This document shows positions 10,004 to 60,951 of a stretch of 64,000 nucleotides of DNA, one piece after another. The stretch spans positions 5,022,001 through 5,086,000 of the forward strand of contig NZ_CP011125.1 in the NCBI RefSeq assembly GCF_000737325.1, in the 5' to 3' direction. Under the pieces are notes generated by a model. The model worked only from the letters and a program-made list of their open reading frames with translations. It was not told where the DNA came from and ran no database searches. The position numbers and the translations under genes are program-made. This stretch comes from Sandaracinus amylolyticus (lineage in GTDB: Bacteria; Myxococcota_A; Polyangia; Polyangiales; Sandaracinaceae). Position 1 is the stretch's first letter; each line of letters opens with the position of its first letter.

Positions 10004-12319
10004 ATGCAGACACGTCGTGCGTGGGAAGCGGTTGCGCTGACGTGGATCTTCGCGTGCGCCGCGTGCGACGGCCCGCACGAGCAGGTCGACGCGGGGCTCG
10101 ACGCGAGCCACGCGCCGGACGGCGGCTCGGACGCGTGGGTCGCGCCGGATGCATGGGTCCCGGTCGATCCGCGGTGCGACGACCTCGACCCATGCACACG
10201 CGACGCGCTCGTGGGCGACGCTTGTGTGTCGACGCCGGCGCCCGACGGCACGCTGTGCGACGACGGCGACGGCTGTACGCTCGGTGATCGTTGCCAGTCC
10301 GGCGTGTGCAACGCGGGTGAGCGCGCGACGGCCGACGCCGCGCTGCTGTCGAGCGCGTCGGCGCCCTTCCCTGGCCCCGGGCTCGGGATCGGCGCGGACG
10401 AGCTCCTGTTCTTCCAGCCCGAGGGATCGGGGACCCGCGTGCGGCTCGTGCACGTCGTCGAGGACGGGCTGTTCGAGGTCGTCGACGAGCTGATGCTCGA
10501 GATCGCGGTCGGGACGAGCTGGTGGCTCGGAGAAGGGCTCGTCGTGTACGCCGGCGGGACCCACGTCGGGTTGCTCGAGGTGCGCGCGGACGAGCTCGTC
10601 GCGCGCGGCACGTTCGAGCTCGAGGGCGACGTGACCGGCGTCCGCCACGCCGCGGCGCTCGGCGACGCCCTGCTCCTGTGCTCGCTCGACCTCTATCTCG
10701 AGCCGTCGATCCTGCACGTCGTCGACGCGAGCGACCGCGACGTCCCCGTCGTGCAGAGCGAGGGCCTGGTCGGCCACGGAGACGATTGCGCCGCCCTCGC
10801 CGCGTCGACCGATCGCAGCCGCGCGTTCCTCGCGGGCCGCTTCAGGACCTTCGTCCTCGCGCCCGACGGGACGATCGAGCGCACGCTCGAGATCCCGTCC
10901 GAGTCGGTGCACGTCGGCGCCGGGTACGTGACGCTCGCCACGACGCGCGGCGTCCGTCTGCTCCGCGAGTCGGATCTGGTCGAAGTCGCGCGGCTCGATC
11001 TGCCCGTCATCGCGGCGCGGCACACGCGTCGCGGCCTCGAGGTCGTCGCGAACCGCGCGCGCGGCCCGGCGGAGCGCGTGTTCCTCGTGTTCGCGGTCCA
11101 CCCCGGCGCGGCCGACCCGCTCGAGCTGCTCTCGGACGAGGTGCTCGGCCCCGAGCGCATCGTGTCCGCCGCAGCTCCGTGGGCGAGCCACGACGACTCG
11201 ATGTACGACGACCTTCGCCTCTTCCGGATCCGCTCGAGCGCGCCCTACCTCGACGAGATCGGCGAGCCCCACCGCTTCTGGCCCGGATGGATGCGCGCGT
11301 CGGGCACGACGCTGCACCTGCGCGACGACGCCGCCGCGGTGGCGCTCGACGCGAGCGATCCGACGGCGCCCCGTGCGGTCGCAGGCGGCGCGCACGAAGG
11401 CACGCCGGGAGGCTTGACCGTGGAGGTTCCCAGCGAGGGCCCGATCGGCCTCTACGGTGCGCGATCGGCGAGCGGCAGCGTCCCGGGATCGATCGAGACG
11501 CACGGCTGGTGGCTTCGTGCGGACGTGATCGGACGCTCGTTCGACGCGGAGGAGCGACCGACGGACCTCGCGACGCACAGGCTGCCGGGGCTCGTCGTGC
11601 AGGTCGATGCGACGTACCGCAACGTCTATGCGGTCCGGCTCCACACCGCGCGGACGCGGCTCGACGTGCTGCGATGGACTGCGGAGCAATTCCTCCATCC
11701 GCAGGAGCTGGTCGCCGGCCTCGAGCAGCACGTCGAGGCGCCCGCGGGCCGCGTCGTGAGCGTCATCTCGCGTGTGCACGACGATCACGCGGTGGCGTTC
11801 GCGACGACCGACGAGAGCGACCAGCTCGCCGCGGTCCACTGGGTCGAGCTCGGCGGGAGCGAGCGCGTCGTGGGCCCGGCGCAGCTCGACGTCGGCGTCC
11901 AGGCGCTCGCGGTGCGTGGCGATCGGATCGTCGTGCTGGGATGGCATCCGAGCCCCGACGCGACGGGCGCGACGAGCACCACCGCGGACATCGTGCTCAT
12001 CACGCTCGAACGACGCGGCGACGAGCTGGTCGAGGTGAGCCGCGTGAGCTGGGCGACACCGCCGACGCCGCGGCTCGACGCGTCCGCGCCCGTGGCGCTG
12101 CTCCGCTTCGATGGTCAGGTCGTGTACGCCCAGCTTCCGTTCGGCGCTCCGGACGCGCCCGGCCCCGCGATCGTCGCGATGCGGGCGGGCGACCTCTCGC
12201 AGCGCTTCGTCTATCCGCTGCCCGACGCGCGACCGATCTGGTCCGCGAGCGACAGCGACGTCGGCCTGGCGTTCAGCGGTCCGGCGCGCGTGCACGTCGT
12301 GCGGCCGTGGTGCCCGTGA
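10004..12319 (+). CDS. Large secreted lipoprotein, Cys-rich module plus beta-propeller-like body (paralog 1)
   Basis: 771 residues. The signal peptide ends with lipobox Cys21, and an Asp/Ala/Gly/Ser-rich spacer follows. A short disulphide-rich module (CDDLDPCT, then CDDGDGCTLGDRCQSG) precedes a body of about 650 residues with repeating strand-turn units such as HVVDASDRDVPVV, RFWPGWMRASGTTLHLRDD and ALDASDPTAPRAVAGG. The body resembles secreted C-terminal beta-propeller (Beta_propel) proteins of myxobacteria; that is a tentative assignment. The next gene is a full-length paralog with the same order of motifs and the same C-terminal ending (RPWCP), so the pair arose by tandem duplication. ATG 10004 is the first start at the signal peptide. 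Confidence 0.7.
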   Translation: MQTRRAWEAVALTWIFACAACDGPHEQVDAGLDASHAPDGGSDAWVAPDAWVPVDPRCDDLDPCTRDALVGDACVSTPAPDGTLCDDGDGCTLGDRCQSGVCNAGERATADAALLSSASAPFPGPGLGIGADELLFFQPEGSGTRVRLVHVVEDGLFEVVDELMLEIAVGTSWWLGEGLVVYAGGTHVGLLEVRADELVARGTFELEGDVTGVRHAAALGDALLLCSLDLYLEPSILHVVDASDRDVPVVQSEGLVGHGDDCAALAASTDRSRAFLAGRFRTFVLAPDGTIERTLEIPSESVHVGAGYVTLATTRGVRLLRESDLVEVARLDLPVIAARHTRRGLEVVANRARGPAERVFLVFAVHPGAADPLELLSDEVLGPERIVSAAAPWASHDDSMYDDLRLFRIRSSAPYLDEIGEPHRFWPGWMRASGTTLHLRDDAAAVALDASDPTAPRAVAGGAHEGTPGGLTVEVPSEGPIGLYGARSASGSVPGSIETHGWWLRADVIGRSFDAEERPTDLATHRLPGLVVQVDATYRNVYAVRLHTARTRLDVLRWTAEQFLHPQELVAGLEQHVEAPAGRVVSVISRVHDDHAVAFATTDESDQLAAVHWVELGGSERVVGPAQLDVGVQALAVRGDRIVVLGWHPSPDATGATSTTADIVLITLERRGDELVEVSRVSWATPPTPRLDASAPVALLRFDGQVVYAQLPFGAPDAPGPAIVAMRAGDLSQRFVYPLPDARPIWSASDSDVGLAFSGPARVHVVRPWCP

Positions 12320-12390: not shown

Positions 12391-14715
12391 ATGGCGAAAC
12401 ACGCGTGTTGGGCGTCGCTCACGCTGATGGCGTGGGCGTGCGTGGGATGCAGTCTCTCGCACACGCGAGATCGTTCCGACGAGCACACACTCGACGCACA
12501 CGTGCCCCTGCTCGACGCGGGCGCCGACGGCGGATTGCCCGACGCGTGGGTGCCGCCCGATGCGTCCGAGCCTCCCGGGTGCGACGACCTCGACCCTTGC
12601 ACGCGCGAGGCGATCGTGGGCGGCGTGTGCGTGTCGACGGCGGTGCGCGACGGCGCGCTGTGCGACGACGGCGACAGCTGCACGCTCGGTGATCGCTGCG
12701 TCGCGGGTCGCTGCCGAGGCGGGGCTCCTTCGACGGGCGGCGCCGGGCTCGTGTCGGTCCCGGTGCCGGCGTTCCGCGGGCGCTCGGTCGGCATCGGCGG
12801 CGACGACTTCCTGTTCTTCCGACCCGAGGGCACCGGCACCGCCGTCGTGCTGGCGCACGGCGAAGGCGGTCGGCTCGACGAGCTCGACGAGCTGCAGCTC
12901 CCGACGCCCGGGATCAGCCGTGCCTTCTCGCTCGGCGAGAAGCTCGTCGCCTACGTCGCGTTCCACGGCGGCGGGCTGCTCGAGATCTCCGGTGACGAGC
13001 TCTTCGCGCGAGGCACGTTCGACGTGGGACCGGTGCTCTCGGCGCACCACTTCGCGATGATCGAAGATCGCCTCTTCGTCTGCATGTCCGACCCGTTCGG
13101 CCCGAGCGATCTGCGCGTGCTCGACGCGAGCGCGCCCGACGTGCTCGTCGACCTCGGCACCGTGCCGATTCCCGACGGATGCCGGGCGCTCGCCGCATCG
13201 ACCGATCGACGGCGCGCGTATCTGTCGACTGGTACCGACACGCTGGTCGTGACGCCCGATGGGCTGATCGAGCGTGCGCTCGGGATCGCGTCGACCTCGG
13301 TGCACGTCTCGGACGGCTTCGTCACGCTCAACACCGAGCGGCGTGTTCAGCTGCTGCGCGAGGCCGATGGCGTCGAGCTCGCGCGCGTCGACGCGCCCGT
13401 CGTCCAGATCGCGCGGCACACGCGCCGCGGGCTCGAGGTGATGACCCACGAGGCGGGCATGCGCGTGCTCTCGTTCTACGAGATCCGCGCAGGCGCGCCG
13501 GTCGTGATCTCGCGCGAGGTCGTCGGGCCGGTGGACCCCGGGACCGGCCTCGCGGTGGAGACGACCTCGGTGTGGGCGAGCCACGAGGACGCGCTGCTCG
13601 ACGGGATGCGCCTCTTCCGGATGCGCGCGACGCCGCCGTTCCTCGAGGAGATCCGCGATCCGCGTCGCTTCTGGCCGTACTGGATGCGCGCCGCCGGGAC
13701 GACGTTGCACCTGCGCGACGACCACGGAGCGATCGCGATCGACCTGAGCGATCCCGCAGCGCCGCGCGCGGTCGCGGGCGGCGAGTTCCTCGGCACGGAC
13801 GGGATGACGATCGAGGTCCCGAACGACGGCGAGATCGGCCTCTACGGCGCGCGCTCGTGGTGGCCCACGCGCGGCCGTCATCGACCCGGATCGCTGTTCA
13901 CGCAGTCGCTCTCGCACGCGAACGTGATCGGACGCTCGTTCGACGCGGCGGAGCGACCGACGGATCACGCGACGCACGCGCTCCCTGGCGGTCCGACGTA
14001 CGTCCACGCGACGTACCGCCACGTGTACGCCGAGTCGCTCGACGCGTCGGGCGCGCACCTCGACGTCACGCGGTGGCGCGCCGAGCAGCTCTTCGCGCCC
14101 GAGCCGCTCGTCGCAGGGCTCGAGCAGCGCGTCGACGCGCCGCCCGGCGATCCGATCGCGCAGATCGCGCGCCTGCACGGCGACACCGCGACGGCGTTCG
14201 CCACGACGGCGGCCTGGGGGAGCGCCGACCTGCACTGGGTCGTGCTCGGCGGCGGCGAGCGCGTGGTCGGCCCGCTGCACCTCGACATCGAGGTCGAGGA
14301 TCTCGCGGTCGACGGCGATCGGATCGTCGCGATGGGCTGGCACGCCGATCCCGCGAGCCCGGGGAGCGCGCTGACGATCCACGACATCGTGTTCGTCACC
14401 GTCGAGCGCCGAGGCGATGCCCTCGTCGAGGTGAGCCGCGCCGGCTGGGCGACACCGGCGACGTCGCGCGTGAGCACGTACGCGCCGATCCAGCTGCTGC
14501 GCTTCGACGGGCGCGTGGTGTACGCGCAGCTCCCGTTCGGCACGCCCGACGAGCCGCGCCCGTCGATCGTCGCGCTCCTCGCGAGCGATCTCTCCGCGCG
14601 CGTCGGCTATCCGATGCGCGACCCGCTGCCGCTCTTCTCGGCGAGCGAGACCGACATGGGGCTCGTGTTCAGCGGACCGGCCGGCGTGTACGTGGCGCGT
14701 CCGTGGTGCCCGTGA
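12391..14715 (+). CDS. Large secreted lipoprotein, Cys-rich module plus beta-propeller-like body (paralog 2)
   Basis: 774 residues with the same architecture as the preceding gene: lipobox WACVGC (Cys20), an Asp/Ala-rich linker, Cys module CDDLDPCTREA and CDDGDSCTLGDRC, then the propeller-like body with RFWPYWMRAAGTTLHLRDD, AIDLSDPAAPRAVAGG and AERPTDHATHALPGG. The conserved tail is GPAGVYVARPWCP. Divergence from its neighbour is greatest in the first 120 residues and in surface-loop-like segments. The gap between the paralogs is 71 bp with no clear terminator, so co-transcription is possible. The 3' end converges on the FHA gene with 4 bp between stops. Its function is unknown; the two may form a heteromeric surface structure. 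Confidence 0.7.
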   Translation: MAKHACWASLTLMAWACVGCSLSHTRDRSDEHTLDAHVPLLDAGADGGLPDAWVPPDASEPPGCDDLDPCTREAIVGGVCVSTAVRDGALCDDGDSCTLGDRCVAGRCRGGAPSTGGAGLVSVPVPAFRGRSVGIGGDDFLFFRPEGTGTAVVLAHGEGGRLDELDELQLPTPGISRAFSLGEKLVAYVAFHGGGLLEISGDELFARGTFDVGPVLSAHHFAMIEDRLFVCMSDPFGPSDLRVLDASAPDVLVDLGTVPIPDGCRALAASTDRRRAYLSTGTDTLVVTPDGLIERALGIASTSVHVSDGFVTLNTERRVQLLREADGVELARVDAPVVQIARHTRRGLEVMTHEAGMRVLSFYEIRAGAPVVISREVVGPVDPGTGLAVETTSVWASHEDALLDGMRLFRMRATPPFLEEIRDPRRFWPYWMRAAGTTLHLRDDHGAIAIDLSDPAAPRAVAGGEFLGTDGMTIEVPNDGEIGLYGARSWWPTRGRHRPGSLFTQSLSHANVIGRSFDAAERPTDHATHALPGGPTYVHATYRHVYAESLDASGAHLDVTRWRAEQLFAPEPLVAGLEQRVDAPPGDPIAQIARLHGDTATAFATTAAWGSADLHWVVLGGGERVVGPLHLDIEVEDLAVDGDRIVAMGWHADPASPGSALTIHDIVFVTVERRGDALVEVSRAGWATPATSRVSTYAPIQLLRFDGRVVYAQLPFGTPDEPRPSIVALLASDLSARVGYPMRDPLPLFSASETDMGLVFSGPAGVYVARPWCP

Positions 14716-14719
14716 AGCG

Positions 14720-16690
14720 CTATTCGTCCTCGTCGACCGAGCGCGCGCGGGAGAGCGCGTCGATGCGCTGCCGCGCGCGCGAGTACGTCGCGCTGCTCGA
14801 AGGCACCATCGGAAGGATCGCGCGGTAGAGCGCGATCGCGCGGCTCGCGTCGTTGCGCTCGACACCCTGCGCTTCGCCGAGCAGCGACTGCGCGCGTTGC
14901 TCGCACTGCCGCCCCAGCGACGTCGCGCGCGCGCCATCGTCGAGGCGCAGCGCGAGCTGCACGCGGCGACACGCGTCCTGAGGGCGCGATCCGATCGAGG
15001 ACTGTGCGGAGTCGAGGTACGCCGCGACGAGCTGCGGACGCAACCGCGCGCCGTAGTGACCGCCGCGCACGATCTGGTTGTCGATCGCAATGGCGCGCTC
15101 GAGCGCGGAGATCGCCTGCGCCGAGCCGCGCGACGCGTTCTGCGCAGCGCGATAGTGCGTCGCGAACTGATCGATCTGCGTGGCGAGCGCGGCTTGCCCA
15201 CCGGCGCGTGCCGCGCGCGAAGCGCTCGCGAAGTCACCGCCGCGATACGCGGAGAGAACGGCATCGCCGCCGCGCGTCGGACGCGCCGGCTCCGCGCGCT
15301 CCGTGGTGCGAGTCGGCCTCGGAGCGCGCACCGGACGCACACCGCGCTCGCGCGGCGAGGGATCCGCTCCGCGCGCCGCCGGCGTCTCGCGCTCGCGCTC
15401 TTCGACGGCCGCTTCGGCGACCGGCTCGGGCGCCGCGACCGGCTGCACCGTCGCGACCGGCTGCACCGTCGCGACCGGCTGCGCAGGCGCGCCCGGCTGC
15501 ACCGTCGCGACCGGCTGCGCAGGCGGCACCGGCTGCACAGGCGGGACCTGTTGCGCCGTCGGGACCACCGTGGGCTGCGCGGGCGCGACCGTCGGGATCG
15601 TCGCGACGGGCGGCACGTACGCAGGCACCGCGACCGGCGTGCTCTCCACGGGGAGCGTCGACGCGACCGGCTGCGGCTGCGTCGTGCTGCTGCGCAGCAC
15701 CAGCGCCACCACGAGCGCGCCGAGCACGGCGGCACCGACCGCGATCCCCGCGGCCGCGAGCAGCAACGTCCGCCGATCCAGCACCACGTTGCCGGTCCGC
15801 TCCTGCGCACCGAGCCACGCGCTCGACGGCGCCGGCGGCGGCAGCGAGGGCCCACCGGCGGCGGGCGGAAGCGACGACCATTCGCTGTGCGTCGCGAGCG
15901 GCATCTCGAACGACGGCCCGGCGGACCGCACGTTCTCGTCCGTCGTGTGCTCGGGCGCGCGCGGCAGATCGGGCTCCGACTGCGCCGCGGCCGCGAGGTC
16001 CGCCCCCGGCACTCGCACCACCAGCACGGTCTCGCCGAGCTCGATGCGATCGCCGTCGGAGAGCGCCACCGAGCTCACGCGGCGCCCGTTGACCATCGTG
16101 CCGTTGCCGCTGCCCATGTCGCGCAGCACGAGCACGGCGGCCTCGCGCACCACCTTGAGGTGCCGCCGCGACACCGAGACGTCCGCGAGGATCACCTCGT
16201 TGTCGATGCCGCGACCGACCGTCGTCTCGCCCTCGACGAGCACGTACTCGCGGCCCTGATCGCGCCCCGACTCGACGAAGAGCACCGGCATCGGCGGGCC
16301 CTCGTCGTAGATCTGCGTGCTCTCGCTGAGCAGCGCGTCGCGATCGTCGATCGCGGTGTGCTCGTTGACGAGATCGTCCTCCTCGAACTCCGAGAAGGCG
16401 TCCGGCGGCTTCGACGGGCCGGCGGGAGGGAAGTCGATCGCGTCGTCGCGATCGTCGGGCATGCGGCGCACGTCGCTCGCCTCGACCGGGACCCGTGACC
16501 GCGGCGGGATCGTCTCGATCGCCGGCGCGTCGTCCGCCGTGGCGGGATCGAGCGGCGGTGGCGGATGCGACGCAGTGAGCCGATCGCCGAGGCGATCGAC
16601 GAACGCATCCCCTCGACGAGGCCCGACAGGAGGCTCGCCGTGCGAGGCATCGCCCATCGGCGAACCGGGCGCGCGCGTGGACCCGCTCAT
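14720..16690 (-). CDS. FHA-domain membrane protein with Pro/Val repeat linker
   Basis: 656 residues. An acidic disordered N terminus of about 130 residues leads to an FHA domain (about 133-225) with the phosphothreonine-binding motifs GRGIDN, SVSRRHL and GSGNGTMVNGR. A transmembrane helix follows near residues 309-331, then a Pro/Val/Gln-rich periplasmic linker of QPVATV-type repeats, an Arg/Pro/Glu-rich segment and a helical C-terminal domain with TPR-like spacing. The gene is divergent from a Ser/Thr kinase with 59 bp between the starts, so the FHA domain may read phosphothreonines made by that kinase. ATG 16690 is preferred over the in-frame TTG at 16702 because a likely -10 box (TAGGCT) ends at 16704. 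Confidence 0.85.
   Translation of the reverse strand: MSGSTRAPGSPMGDASHGEPPVGPRRGDAFVDRLGDRLTASHPPPPLDPATADDAPAIETIPPRSRVPVEASDVRRMPDDRDDAIDFPPAGPSKPPDAFSEFEEDDLVNEHTAIDDRDALLSESTQIYDEGPPMPVLFVESGRDQGREYVLVEGETTVGRGIDNEVILADVSVSRRHLKVVREAAVLVLRDMGSGNGTMVNGRRVSSVALSDGDRIELGETVLVVRVPGADLAAAAQSEPDLPRAPEHTTDENVRSAGPSFEMPLATHSEWSSLPPAAGGPSLPPPAPSSAWLGAQERTGNVVLDRRTLLLAAAGIAVGAAVLGALVVALVLRSSTTQPQPVASTLPVESTPVAVPAYVPPVATIPTVAPAQPTVVPTAQQVPPVQPVPPAQPVATVQPGAPAQPVATVQPVATVQPVAAPEPVAEAAVEERERETPAARGADPSPRERGVRPVRAPRPTRTTERAEPARPTRGGDAVLSAYRGGDFASASRAARAGGQAALATQIDQFATHYRAAQNASRGSAQAISALERAIAIDNQIVRGGHYGARLRPQLVAAYLDSAQSSIGSRPQDACRRVQLALRLDDGARATSLGRQCEQRAQSLLGEAQGVERNDASRAIALYRAILPMVPSSSATYSRARQRIDALSRARSVDEDE
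15441..15548 (-). repeat. Six 18-bp tandem repeats inside the FHA-protein linker
   Basis: Six in-frame 18-bp units of the form GGCTGCACCGTCGCGACC (plus-strand reading) encode the six-residue unit QPVATV and variants. Three units are identical, so the number of units may vary between strains by slippage. This is a coding minisatellite, not a CRISPR array. Confidence 0.8.
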
Positions 16691-32665: not shown

Positions 32666-34444
32666 ATGCTCGCGCTCACGGCGGTGTTCCTCGCGGCGGC
32701 GGTCGTCGCCGTGCCCGTGTTCAAACGGCTCGGGCTCGGATCCGTGCTCGGATATCTCGTGGGCGGCGCGATCATCGGGCCGTCCGGGCTCGGGCTCGTC
32801 GAGGACGTGCAGTCGACGCTGCACTTCGCCGAGTTCGGCGTGGTGCTGCTGCTCTTCATCATCGGGCTCGAGCTCCAGCCCGCGCGCCTCTGGCGCATGC
32901 GCGGCGCGGTGTTCGGGCTCGGCGGCGCGCAGGTCCTCGCGACCGCCGCGATCGTGGGCGGCATCGCGATCGCGCTCGGTCTCGACTGGCGCGCCGCGCT
33001 CGTCGCGGGCTTCGCGCTCGCGATGTCGTCGACCGCGTTCGCGACGCAGATGCTCGGCGAGAAGCACGAGCTGTCGACGCCGCACGGGCGCGCGGCGTTC
33101 GGCGTCCTGCTCTTCCAGGACGTCGCGGCGATCCCGCTGCTCGCGATCGTGCCGATGCTCGGCGCGGCGCCCACCGACAGCGGCTCGCCGTGGATGCGGT
33201 TCGGCCTCGCCGCGGGCGTGATCGTCGCGCTCGTGATCGGCGGGCGCATGCTGCTGCGCCCGATGTTCCGGCTGATCGCGCAAGCGCGCAGCCACGAGCT
33301 CTCGGTCGCGTCGGCGCTGCTCGTCGTGGTCGCGACCGCGATCCTGATGGAGCACGTGGGCCTCTCGATGGCGCTCGGCGCGTTCATCGCGGGCGTGCTC
33401 CTCGCCGACTCCGAGTACCGCCACGAGCTCGAGGCGAACATCGAGCCCTTCAAGGGCCTCTTGCTCGGCCTCTTCTTCATGGCGGTCGGCATGTCAGCGA
33501 ACCTCGGCGTGCTCCTCGCGCACCCGCTGCTGATCGTCGGGCTCGCGCTCGCGCTGGTCGCCGCGAAGTTCGCGGTGCTCGTGATCCTCGCGCGCCTGAC
33601 CGGTCACTCGACGGAGTCGAGCGCGAGCCTCGGCGTCGCGATCTCGCAGGGCGGCGAGTTCGCGTTCGTGATCTTCGGCGTCGCGACCCAGTCGAGCGTG
33701 CTGCGCGGCGACGTCGTCGAGATCCTCGTCGTCGTCGTGACCATCTCGATGGCGGTCACGCCGCTGCTCTTCCTCGCGCGCGACCGCGTGCAGCAGCGCC
33801 TCGAGCGCGCGAGCGAGCAGCGCGCGTTCGACGAGATCGACGGCGACGAGAGCCAGGTGATCATCGCGGGGTTCGGTCGGTTCGGGCAGATCGTGGGACG
33901 CGTGCTGCGCCTGCGGCGCATCCCGTTCACCGCGCTCGACGTGAGCCCCGAGCACGTCGACTTCCTCCGCCGCTTCGGCAACAAGATCCACTACGGCGAC
34001 GCGTCACGCCTCGATCTCCTGCGCGCGGCGAAGGCGGAGAGCGCGAAGGTGCTCGTGCTCGCGATCGACGACGTCGAGGCCTCGATGCGCACGCTCCACC
34101 TCGTGAAGGAGCACTTCCCGCACCTCAAGGTCGTCGCGCGCGCGCGCAACCGGCAGCACGCGTACGCGCTGCTCGGCGTAGGTGTCGACACCGTGATCCG
34201 CGAGACCTTCGCGGGCAGCGTCGAGGCCGCGCAGCGCACGCTCGAGGAGCTCGGCCTCGCGCACTCCGACGCGAAGCGCGCGGTGCGCCGCTTCGCCGAG
34301 TACGACGAGCGCATGGTGCGCGAGATGTTCGTGCACCGCGAGGACGAGAAGAAGCTGATCGAGAGCGCGAAGCTCTACGGCAAGGAGCTCGAGCGCATCT
34401 TCGACGACGACGCGCGCTCGAGCCCCGTGCGCGAGGCGAGCTGA
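32666..34444 (+). CDS. KefB/KefC-type K+ efflux antiporter with RCK-N domain
   Basis: 592 residues. The membrane part covers about residues 1-375 (FKRLGLGSVLGYLVGGAIIGP, GLELQPARLWRMRG, LLFQDVAAIPLL, AISQGGEFAFVIFG). One RCK-N domain begins near residue 393 (VIIAGFGRFGQIVGRVL, HYGDASRLDLLRAA). The C-terminal helical tail after the RCK domain is as in Kef proteins, where glutathione adducts gate K+ efflux; whether that applies here is unknown. It has no TrkA-C domain, unlike the antiporter just upstream, so the two are not simple duplicates. The stop faces PhoU across a 101-bp gap that holds a structured repeat. Confidence 0.9.
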   Translation: MLALTAVFLAAAVVAVPVFKRLGLGSVLGYLVGGAIIGPSGLGLVEDVQSTLHFAEFGVVLLLFIIGLELQPARLWRMRGAVFGLGGAQVLATAAIVGGIAIALGLDWRAALVAGFALAMSSTAFATQMLGEKHELSTPHGRAAFGVLLFQDVAAIPLLAIVPMLGAAPTDSGSPWMRFGLAAGVIVALVIGGRMLLRPMFRLIAQARSHELSVASALLVVVATAILMEHVGLSMALGAFIAGVLLADSEYRHELEANIEPFKGLLLGLFFMAVGMSANLGVLLAHPLLIVGLALALVAAKFAVLVILARLTGHSTESSASLGVAISQGGEFAFVIFGVATQSSVLRGDVVEILVVVVTISMAVTPLLFLARDRVQQRLERASEQRAFDEIDGDESQVIIAGFGRFGQIVGRVLRLRRIPFTALDVSPEHVDFLRRFGNKIHYGDASRLDLLRAAKAESAKVLVLAIDDVEASMRTLHLVKEHFPHLKVVARARNRQHAYALLGVGVDTVIRETFAGSVEAAQRTLEELGLAHSDAKRAVRRFAEYDERMVREMFVHREDEKKLIESAKLYGKELERIFDDDARSSPVREAS

Positions 34445-34458
34445 GCTAGGGTCCGAAC

Positions 34459-34539
34459 ATCGGCTCGCCCGGTCAGCGCCCCCCGTCCACGTGCTCCGCA
34501 CGCTCCCGTGCGGGCCCTGCGCCGACGAGCACTCCAGCC
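34459..34539 (-). repeat. Structured 81-nt intergenic repeat, copy A (after phoU)
   Basis: On the minus strand this begins 6 nt after the phoU stop. It matches copy B (54466-54546) at 72 of 81 aligned positions without gaps. The core hairpin is CCGCAC-GGGAGC-GTGCGG. An outer stem pairs CTCGTC with GGGCGAG plus further bases with small bulges. The end reads GCCGATGTTCGGACC, and the similarity to copy B continues some 15 nt past the element. It lies between two convergent genes, so a terminator role is reasonable. It may equally be a REP-like or mobile element. Confidence 0.75.
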
Positions 34540-34545
34540 ACGAGA

Positions 34546-35232
34546 TCAGGACGACGACGATCGCGACACGAAGTGCCGCACGTCGTCGCCGGAGACCATG
34601 TAGATCACCATCTCCGCGATGTTCGTCGCGTGGTCCGCGATGCGCTCGAGGTACTTCGCGCAGCTCGCGATGCGCATCCCGTCCTCGACGCGCTCCGGCT
34701 GGCTCCGGATGAACTGCATGCTCATCCGCAGGAGCTCGCCGTAGAGCGCGTCGACCGCGTCGTCCTCGCGCAGGACGCGACGCGCCATGTTCGCGTCCTC
34801 CTCGACGAACGAGTCGAGCGCCATGCGCACCATCCGCGACGCCGCGTCCGCCATCTCCGCGAGCTTCGGCTGCAGGTTCGCGATCGGCGGGTGCGCGGCG
34901 AGCTCGACCGTGCGCTCGGCGACGTTCACCGCTTCGTCGCCGATGCGCTCGAGGTCGGTCACGACCTTCAGCGCGGTGACGAGGAAGCGCAGGTCGCGCC
35001 CGACGGGCTGACGGAGCGCGAGGATGCGCACCGTCATCTGGTCGATCGCCATCTCCTCGATGTTGAGGGTGCGATCGCTCTCCTCGACCTCGTGGGCGAG
35101 CGCGCTGTCGAGGTTCTCGAACGCGCGGCTCGCCATGTGGATCAGGCTCTCGCAGCGCGCTCCCATCGCGAGCAGTCGCGCCTTGAGATCGCGTAGCTCC
35201 TGCTCGTACGCGCGGCTGGTGTGAGTGCCCAT
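34546..35232 (-). CDS. phoU: PhoU-family phosphate regulator
   Basis: 228 residues forming two three-helix bundles. Both metal-binding repeats are visible: VVTDLERIGDEAVNVAE near residue 88 and AKYLERIADHATNIAEM near residue 192. The family dampens the Pho regulon through the Pst transporter and the PhoR kinase, and may bind iron or manganese. No pst, phoR or phoB gene is adjacent. Its mRNA would end with the structured repeat that starts 6 nt after the stop. The neighbouring antiporters on the opposite strand are not an obvious functional partner. Confidence 0.92.
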   Translation of the reverse strand: MGTHTSRAYEQELRDLKARLLAMGARCESLIHMASRAFENLDSALAHEVEESDRTLNIEEMAIDQMTVRILALRQPVGRDLRFLVTALKVVTDLERIGDEAVNVAERTVELAAHPPIANLQPKLAEMADAASRMVRMALDSFVEEDANMARRVLREDDAVDALYGELLRMSMQFIRSQPERVEDGMRIASCAKYLERIADHATNIAEMVIYMVSGDDVRHFVSRSSSS

Positions 35233-54436: not shown

Positions 54437-54465
54437 GCGCGCGACCTCCTGAGAGAGTGTCCAAA

Positions 54466-54546
54466 ATCGGCTCGCCGGCGCAGAGCCTTCCGTCCACGTG
54501 CTCCGCACGCTCCGGTGCGGGCCCTGCGCCAGCGAGCACTCCAGCC
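54466..54546 (-). repeat. Structured 81-nt intergenic repeat, copy B (after the HupE-like gene, before the zinc ribbon)
   Basis: This is the clearest copy. On the minus strand the stem CTCGCTGGCGCAG pairs over 13 bases (one U-G) with CTGCGCCGGCGAG. It encloses the inner hairpin CCGCAC-CGGAGC-GTGCGG and a GGGCCC palindrome. The stem is followed by GCCGATTTTGG, a short U-run. The copy starts 18 nt after the stop of the HupE-like gene and ends 29 nt before the zinc-ribbon ATG. Confidence 0.75.
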
Positions 54547-54564
54547 GGGCTGAGCGCGCGGAGT

Positions 54565-59440: not shown

Positions 59441-60853
59441 ATGTGCGGCGTCGTCGGCATCTGGGGCGCCCCGCAGGCGTCCAACCTGACCTACCTCGGG
59501 CTCCACGCGCTGCAGCATCGCGGCCAGGAGAGCGCAGGCATCGTCAGCAGCGACGGAGGGCGCCTCTTCGCGCACAAGTCGCTCGGCCTCGTGCAGGACG
59601 CGTTCTCGCAGCCGGTGCTCGAGGCGCTCCCCGGTGACCGCGCGATCGGCCACGTGCGCTACTCCACCGCCGGCGGCGGTGGGCTCAAGAACGCGCAGCC
59701 GATCGCGGTGGACTACGCGATGGGCTCGCTGGCCGTCGGGCACAACGGCAACTTCACGAACTTCGAGGAAGTGCGGACGCGCCTCGAGGCCGCGGGCTCG
59801 ATCTTCAACAGCTCGAGCGACACGGAGGTGCTCGTCCACCTCATCGCGCGCAGCCGCGAGGCCACGACGGTCGGGCGCGTGAGCGACGCGCTCAAGCAGA
59901 TGCAGGGCGCCTACTCGATCGTGTTCCTCACGACCGACGAGCTCATCGCGGTGCGCGATCCCCACGGCTTCCGCCCGCTCTGCCTCGGCACACTGAGCTC
60001 GTATCCCGGCCTGCCGGGCGCGACCGTCGTCGCGAGCGAGCCCTCCGCGTTCGAGCTGATCGGCGCCGAGTACGTGCGCGACCTCGAGCCCGGCGAGATG
60101 ATCGTCGCGGATCGCGAGGGCGTGCGCTCGCTGCGTCCGTTCGAGACGCGCGCGCAGCGCATGTGCATCTTCGAGTACGTCTACTTCGCGCGGCCGGACT
60201 CGAAGCTGAACGGCATCAGCGTGTACGACACGCGCAAGCGGCTCGGCGCGATCCTCGCGGAGGAGTGCCCGGCCGACGTCGACGTCGTGATCCCGGTGCC
60301 CGACAGCGGCGTCGCGTCGGCGCTGGGCTACGCGGGGCGATTGGGAATTCCGTTCGAGCTCGGCCTGATCCGCAGCCACTACGTGGGCCGCACGTTCATC
60401 GAGCCGAGCCAGTCGATCCGACACTTCGGCGTGAAGCTGAAGCTCTCGCCGGTGCGCGCCGTGCTCGAGGGCAAGCGCGTCGCGGTGATCGACGACTCGA
60501 TCGTGCGCGGCACGACGAGCCGCAAGATCGTGAAGATGCTGCGCGACGCGGGCGCGAAGGAAGTGCACCTGCGCATCAGCTCGCCGCCGACGCGCTGGCC
60601 TTGTTACTACGGCATCGACACGCCCTCGCGGAACGAGCTGATCGCGGCGAGCCACAGCCCCGCCGAGGTCGCGAAGTACGTGACGAGCGACACGGTCGGG
60701 TACCTCTCGATCGACGGTCTGCATCGCGCGGTGCGCGGTGAGGGCCCGGGTCGCCAGGGGTTCTGCGATGCGTGCTTCAGCGGCGACTATCCCGTCCCGT
60801 TCGCGACCGAGAACGGCACCGGGAAGCGCTCGCTGCCGCTCGCGAGCGTTTGA
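59441..60853 (+). CDS. purF: Amidophosphoribosyltransferase (PurF), Fe-S type
   Basis: 470 residues. It makes 5-phosphoribosylamine from PRPP and glutamine, the first step of purine synthesis. The catalytic Cys is Cys2 (MCGVVGIWG), so little or no propeptide precedes it, unlike the short propeptide of Bacillus PurF. The glutaminase motifs are LQHRGQESAG, HVRYSTAG and GHNGNFTN. The PRPP loop is VAVIDDSIVRGTTS. Cys residues in RMCIFEYVYFARPDS and FCDACFSGDY match the ligands of the 4Fe-4S cluster in Bacillus-type enzymes. Structured repeat copy C follows the stop by 3 nt. No other pur gene is nearby. Confidence 0.96.
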   Translation: MCGVVGIWGAPQASNLTYLGLHALQHRGQESAGIVSSDGGRLFAHKSLGLVQDAFSQPVLEALPGDRAIGHVRYSTAGGGGLKNAQPIAVDYAMGSLAVGHNGNFTNFEEVRTRLEAAGSIFNSSSDTEVLVHLIARSREATTVGRVSDALKQMQGAYSIVFLTTDELIAVRDPHGFRPLCLGTLSSYPGLPGATVVASEPSAFELIGAEYVRDLEPGEMIVADREGVRSLRPFETRAQRMCIFEYVYFARPDSKLNGISVYDTRKRLGAILAEECPADVDVVIPVPDSGVASALGYAGRLGIPFELGLIRSHYVGRTFIEPSQSIRHFGVKLKLSPVRAVLEGKRVAVIDDSIVRGTTSRKIVKMLRDAGAKEVHLRISSPPTRWPCYYGIDTPSRNELIAASHSPAEVAKYVTSDTVGYLSIDGLHRAVRGEGPGRQGFCDACFSGDYPVPFATENGTGKRSLPLASV

Positions 60854-60856
60854 TCA

Positions 60857-60935
60857 GCCGGAGCGCTCGCCCGTGCAGGCCCGCACGGAGCGGGCGGAGC
60901 GCGCGGACGGCAGGGCCCGGAGCGGGCGAGCCGAT
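60857..60935 (+). repeat. Structured ~80-nt intergenic repeat, copy C (after purF)
   Basis: This copy starts 3 nt after the purF stop, in the same strand sense. It aligns with copies A and B over their whole length with two single-base gaps. The outer stem CTCGCCCG/CGGGCGAG is perfect, although its sequence differs from copy B (CTCGCTGG/CCGGCGAG). The inner hairpin is CCGCAC-GGAGC-GGGCGG with one mismatch. It ends GCCGATGTTGACC, 34 nt before the next gene. Confidence 0.7.
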
Positions 60936-60951
60936 GTTGACCATCACGTTC

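Follow-up and report, generated by a model that had tools for sequence, protein, structure and literature searches.

What is the roughly 80-nt structured repeat that lies directly behind the stop codons of three unrelated genes in this DNA, and how did it come to be there? The first-pass annotation of the window (the whole 64-kb stretch of DNA analysed) had placed copies A, B and C behind phoU, a HupE-like gene and purF, each on the strand of its gene, and had named a conserved 3'-UTR RNA, a terminator and a REP-like mobile repeat as candidate explanations. Sequence inspection together with a covariance model confirmed all three copies where they had been placed (Table 1). The genes upstream, which encode PhoU, a HupE/UreJ protein and a PurF-like amidophosphoribosyltransferase, and the distances given to their stop codons were confirmed as well. 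The reported gap-free identity of A and B was reproduced at 72 of 81 positions, and copy C can indeed be aligned with small gaps. Window members number exactly three, because the best unrelated site reached only 20.6 bits in a covariance-model search with filters off, compared with 67.2–91.7 bits for the copies; a fourth copy was not found anywhere in the window with this model. A gapped core pattern matched twice in the window (A and B) and not at all in 100 shuffles. Copy A also adjoins a second stop codon, that of a convergent gene (32666–34444), while the CTCAG pair flanking copy B forms a 5-nt direct repeat that is a putative target duplication. Elsewhere in the window, two long imperfect direct repeats 2.4 kb apart (10168–12286 and 12573–14682) are probably tandem paralogous genes, and an 18-nt tandem repeat lies within a probable coding region (15399–15578).

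Table 1 Repeat copies and adjoining features in the window, and retron loci of the host genome (host contig positions).
Feature	Position	Strand	Evidence or relation
Copy A, 82-nt repeat core, subfamily I	34456..34537	-	cmsearch 85.8 bits, E 2.5e-17
Copy B, 82-nt repeat core, subfamily I	54463..54544	-	cmsearch 91.7 bits, E 1.2e-18
Copy C, 81-nt repeat core, subfamily I-like, diverged	60858..60938	+	cmsearch 67.2 bits, E 4.2e-13
phoU stop codon TGA	34546..34548	-	8 nt upstream of copy A
Convergent Na+/H+ exchanger gene, stop codon TGA	34442..34444	+	11 nt beyond copy A 3' end
CTCAG, 5' side of copy B	54550..54554	-	Read from sequence
CTCAG, 3' side of copy B	54449..54453	-	Read from sequence
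purF-like gene stop codon TGA	60851..60853	+	4 nt upstream of copy C
Host retron locus	4488000-4493000		RT search and typing
Host retron locus	7365500-7370500		RT search and typing
Host retron locus	8766500-8771500		RT search and typing

The three copies belong to a large dispersed family. Thirty genomic copies were used to build a covariance model, which recovered at least 150 copies (E <= 1.8e-4) from the host genome, a single contig of 10,327,335 bases in which a DNA search recovered 63. Among the matches listed, these copies (at least 150) group into 96 arrays, with 66 single-copy clusters and two to five copies in the remainder. Nearly all of them lie outside genes called by codon usage. 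Tandem arrays run head-to-tail on one strand with a period of mostly 82–101 nt; the sole mixed-strand cluster among the matches listed consists of two copies 0.7 kb apart. Spacers within arrays often repeat the left flank, at 4974694 with the stop codon included (CGAGTAGTCAG), a sequence pattern that fits local tandem duplication. Arrays are spread unevenly along the chromosome, with 23 of the 96 (among the matches listed) in the tenth at 8.26–9.29 Mb (chi-square p 6e-5).

Outside the host the family is narrowly distributed. The covariance model detected at least 119 copies in the congener G002 and none in a third congener (a fragmented 6-Mb genome) or in the other 35 relatives searched. Across a class sample of 290 genomes, the only carrier beyond the host and G002 was a Nannocystis-labelled MAG with a single copy. 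An exact-pattern scan of 84,980 species returned 19 stretches, of which one, on the contig of this MAG, was a true member (68 bits); three viral contigs carrying the pattern were chance matches. The MAG copy (L156:68-147) lies near a contig end, 7 nt behind a TGA stop codon, and a second copy was not found in that MAG genome. It may reflect either horizontal transfer or mis-binning. Near-absence outside one genus, with this single MAG copy elsewhere, points to a recent, lineage-specific expansion and not to an old conserved RNA.

Each element comprises an imperfect-palindrome core of ~80 nt with short ends, about 95–100 nt of inserted DNA. The consensus folds into a single long hairpin interrupted by internal loops (z -6.2; 0/200 shuffles), and 94% of pair cells are standard pairs in 150 copies among the matches listed. 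Fourteen of 25 pairs are changed on both sides, compared with a shuffled mean of 7.3 and none as high in 500 shuffles, counts to be read with caution, since the covariance alignment had itself been fitted to the structure of the model; the signal is lost when the partner strand is slid. One orthologous pair displays a compensatory exchange directly, with CTCGCTCGCGCAG/CTGAGCGGGCGAG in the host and CTCGCTGGCGGAG/CTGCGCCGGCGAG in G002. The hairpin is maintained by compensatory changes. The fold drawn in the first-pass annotation was right in its outer-stem pairing and the covariation of that stem, but its inner hairpin CCGCAC/GTGCGG is not the most stable fold: on the consensus it is a weaker alternative (-43.6 vs -52.9 kcal/mol) to a model inner helix of CGTGC(G)/(G)GCACG and GGGCCC/GGGCCC. 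A near-invariant motif, GGAG-TGCTCG, marks the 5' side, and the apical stem separates two subfamilies, GCGTGC/GCACGC in subfamily I and GCGCGC/GCGCGC in subfamily II. This split dominates MI with APC calculated on one copy per array; the top pair is nevertheless a stem pair.

Position relative to genes is as distinctive as the fold. Using gene ends from a home-made codon-usage caller, not standard annotation, 73 of the 96 arrays (among the matches listed) adjoin a stop codon and 23 lack an adjoining called stop, where only 6.6% of random intergenic positions lie within 12 nt after a stop (p 1.5e-65). The same register recurs in G002, where 12 of 15 adjoin a stop, and in the MAG copy. In the genome search with a covariance model, a check named beforehand, the position at stop codons, the structure and the covariation all proved to be real. 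The own-strand placement noted for the three copies does not extend to the whole family, however: among the matches listed, 45 arrays have a stop on their own strand and 41 have one on the other strand. Own-strand stops lie 4–8 nt upstream of the element, peaking at 6–7 nt (mode 7), and other-strand stops mostly 8–12 nt beyond its 3' end, peaking at 8–11 nt. Orientation follows subfamily (Fisher p 9e-7). Among the matches listed, subfamily II has an own-strand stop only in 25 cases vs an opposite-strand stop only in five, and subfamily I an opposite-strand stop only in 23 vs an own-strand stop only in five. Arrays between divergently transcribed genes number only seven among the matches listed.

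The flanks share a short motif, TSAG (S = C or G), which corresponds to the stop codon TGA plus G, or to the complement. Among the matches listed, 43 arrays have it in their left flank and 41 in their right, against a background of 6–9%. As many as 42% of TSAG motifs outside genes are at stops, and the excess of arrays at stops remains when this is taken as the baseline (p 2e-11). This excess indicates that the motif and avoidance of genes are not the whole story, and transcription-end context may contribute to stop-codon targeting.

Comparison with G002 provides direct evidence of movement. Twenty-nine orthologous loci, fetched via short gene pieces that are 88–99% identical, carry a full-length element in 10 cases; several others are empty or retain deletion remnants. 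Insertions occurred after the host and G002 separated. At 9082993 the host reads GCTTGCTCTCAG-element-CTCTCAGGCCC where G002 has the empty site GCTTGCTCTCAGGCCC, so that CTCTCAG is doubled in one and single in the other. Relative to their empty sites in G002, TGAG is doubled at 9115716, TGATCG at 4165228 and a 14-nt stretch including the gene's end at 4174691. A reverse case was also found, in which the element is present in G002 with TCAGTCGGT on both sides and the host site is empty. At 8980109 a short host stretch was seemingly replaced, not duplicated. As for the window, copy C is common to host and G002 at the same site, the G002 ortholog of copy B is an internally deleted copy, and the phoU intergenic region, which holds copy A in the host, contains two repeats in opposite orientation in G002, which suggests independent insertions at this site.

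Direct repeats are also in excess across the family. Isolated copies are flanked by direct repeats of 4–14 nt, commonly starting TSAG. Repeats of at least 7 nt number 13 in the 61 isolated arrays among the matches listed, compared with 2.4 expected from swapped flanks (0/1000 as high), and for repeats of 6–11 nt likewise none of 1000 swapped-flank shuffles was as high. Several arrays have no clear direct repeat. Some direct repeats are T-rich or have no TSAG, so the TSAG target is a preference.

The explanation we favor, and regard as very probable, assigns A, B and C to a lineage-specific family of non-autonomous mobile palindromic repeats that are moved in trans and survive at stop codons. 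Under this explanation a trans-acting enzyme would recognise the hairpin as folded single-stranded DNA or RNA and make a staggered cut, often starting at TSAG. At gene ends TSAG would often be the stop codon itself, read as TGAG, or as CTCA from the other strand. Since the target duplication would then rebuild the stop codon, we propose that an insertion there does the gene no harm and persists, whereas selection would purge those within genes. Any influence on mRNA 3' ends would then be a side effect. Cut-and-paste transposases do not usually leave direct repeats of variable length, which counts against this explanation. A different possibility is a SINE-like hairpin element that homes to stop codons, with unrecognised, possibly RNA-templated insertion at TSAG, a target duplication that would rebuild the stop codon and two subfamilies specialised to approach the stop from opposite sides; we consider it unlikely.

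Reverse transcription could account for the same target duplications of variable length and for the conserved RNA-like fold, if an RNA hairpin were copied by a reverse transcriptase (RT) and inserted at nicked targets. The host encodes three retron RTs with likely counterparts in G002, and none was found in the repeat-free congener, although that genome is an 820-contig assembly. Two of the three were typed as PADLOC type XIII (one with an upstream SWIM_XIII gene) and one as RT_other/outgroup, and in two of the three cases the region upstream forms long msr-msd hairpins of the retron kind. However, local alignments of both subfamily consensuses with the upstream (msr-msd) regions of the three retrons and their G002 counterparts remained at shuffle level. 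These regions do not resemble the repeat, and descent from the resident msd sequences is therefore not supported. The covariance model found no parental copy beside the retron RTs, the two strong matches there being known copies. Copies truncated at the 5' end are not in excess. Eight further host RTs with nearly equal scores (6480714, 1463274, 9737454, 10316101, 2237593, 9086747, 8587925 and 172012) are probably group II introns, but no comparably intact counterpart of them was found in G002. We judge a reverse-transcribed origin of this kind quite unlikely, while mobilisation in trans by the retron RTs is possible.

A longer relative that might move the repeat was also searched for. Pattern searches with the left and right ends, which diverged ends may escape, did not find a longer element with conserved ends; the matches fetched were short or internally deleted copies and chance matches in coding DNA. 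Three copies (L233, L236 and L237) are internally deleted, and L237 keeps the basal stem without the loop part.

A role at transcript ends was suggested by the position a few nucleotides behind stop codons, by the strong GC-rich hairpin with covariation and by a weak T-rich tail, GATNTT, on the sense side. If selected for such a role, the repeat would be a structured 3'-UTR element or intrinsic terminator that spread via occasional duplication. Neither form of this proposal agrees with the family as a whole. A conserved 3'-UTR RNA is contradicted by confinement to one genus (one stray copy apart), by the frequently empty orthologous sites in the congener and by opposite-strand stops being about as frequent as own-strand stops. 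For the terminator, TTTT follows the stem in 9 of 45 same-strand cases and 0 of 39 opposite-strand cases among the matches listed, so no T-run faces the opposite gene, and a terminator scan of copy B was empty; with TTTT so scarce behind the stem, intrinsic termination is not a common property. The window yielded no Rfam match at the gathering threshold, and a lax Rfam search with three copies turned up only a chance CRISPR repeat elsewhere. We consider selection for a transcript-end role improbable as the origin of the family. By analogy with REPs, the hairpin may still protect or mark mRNA ends after insertion.

Among mobile repeats, bacterial MITEs such as Correia, RUP and ERIC are short, non-autonomous and structured, with target duplication. 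The host repeat shares each of these features. It differs in that its inverted repeats fill the whole element, its outermost ends mismatch and there is no TA target; furthermore, no partner transposon with the same ends was found in the host genome.

The first-pass suggestion of a REP-like mobile repeat was supported in kind, but the REP hallmarks tested are not all present. Like REP/BIME elements, the family consists of high-copy extragenic palindromes (more than 100 intergenic copies) with a tetranucleotide before the hairpin, clustering and genus-restricted expansion (PMC2817692, PMC3733652). The hairpin is preceded by GGAG and followed by CGAT, an arrangement that recalls REPs of Pseudomonas, e.g. 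GTAGGAGCGG...CCGCGAT (PMC2817692). In contrast to REPs, the host hairpin has a core of 80 nt instead of 20–40 nt and no GTAG/CGTC tag, and its copies form same-strand arrays bordered by direct repeats, in a head-to-tail order that is absent or under-represented in REP dimers (PMC3733652). Movement of such an element by a RAYT would involve a Y1 tyrosine transposase, and at the sensitivity of its model Y1_Tnp (PF01797) was detected in none of three Sandaracinus genomes (the host and two congeners), while the E. coli control was positive. A RAYT-mobilised REP/BIME element thus appears decidedly improbable as the identity of the family. We find it scarcely credible that the copies are attC-like recombination sites disseminated by an integron or other tyrosine recombinase. 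Several traits recall such sites: imperfect palindromes directly after stops, head-to-tail arrays with spacers that duplicate the left flank, and in some copies a 3'-end GTTGGAC that fits GTTRRRY. But the GTTRRRY motif is not conserved across the family, the arrays have no cassettes, and integron integrase (TIGR02249) stayed below cut-off in all three Sandaracinus genomes, with only Xer-like matches of a kind also raised in 13 of 14 control genomes.

Two further systems resemble the repeat by description only. In behaviour the closest appears to be YPAL/RU-2 of Yersinia, 168-bp palindromic intergenic repeats with target duplications of 3–26 bp whose mobility was deduced from empty and filled sites (PMC2229807). 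Both are small, non-coding and intergenic, contain internal inverted repeats, are not A+T-rich and have variable duplications and filled/empty sites, whereas the host element is about 95–100 nt long, targets stop codons/TSAG and forms head-to-tail arrays. The msDNA-like repeats of Nannocystis exedens, for which retrotransposition was proposed (Lampson and Rice 1997, as cited in PMC6868368), are likewise a hairpin-capable myxobacterial family (also Lampson et al. 2002, via PMC6868368), although the host repeat shows no similarity to the msd regions of the three resident retrons.

Given these likenesses, and the REP and MITE features that the repeat lacks, we file the family among the small mobile palindromic repeats. 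It is a variant of them, and its unusual traits are the stop-codon register and the subfamily-specific orientation. Bacterial genomes commonly contain small palindromic repeats. The family carries a caution for reading them: a functional 3'-UTR RNA is not proved by structure, covariation and a position directly behind stop codons alone. It also offers filled and empty pairs in close relatives and a sharp stop-codon target together with no obvious transposase, and the search for its mobiliser is therefore a defined problem.
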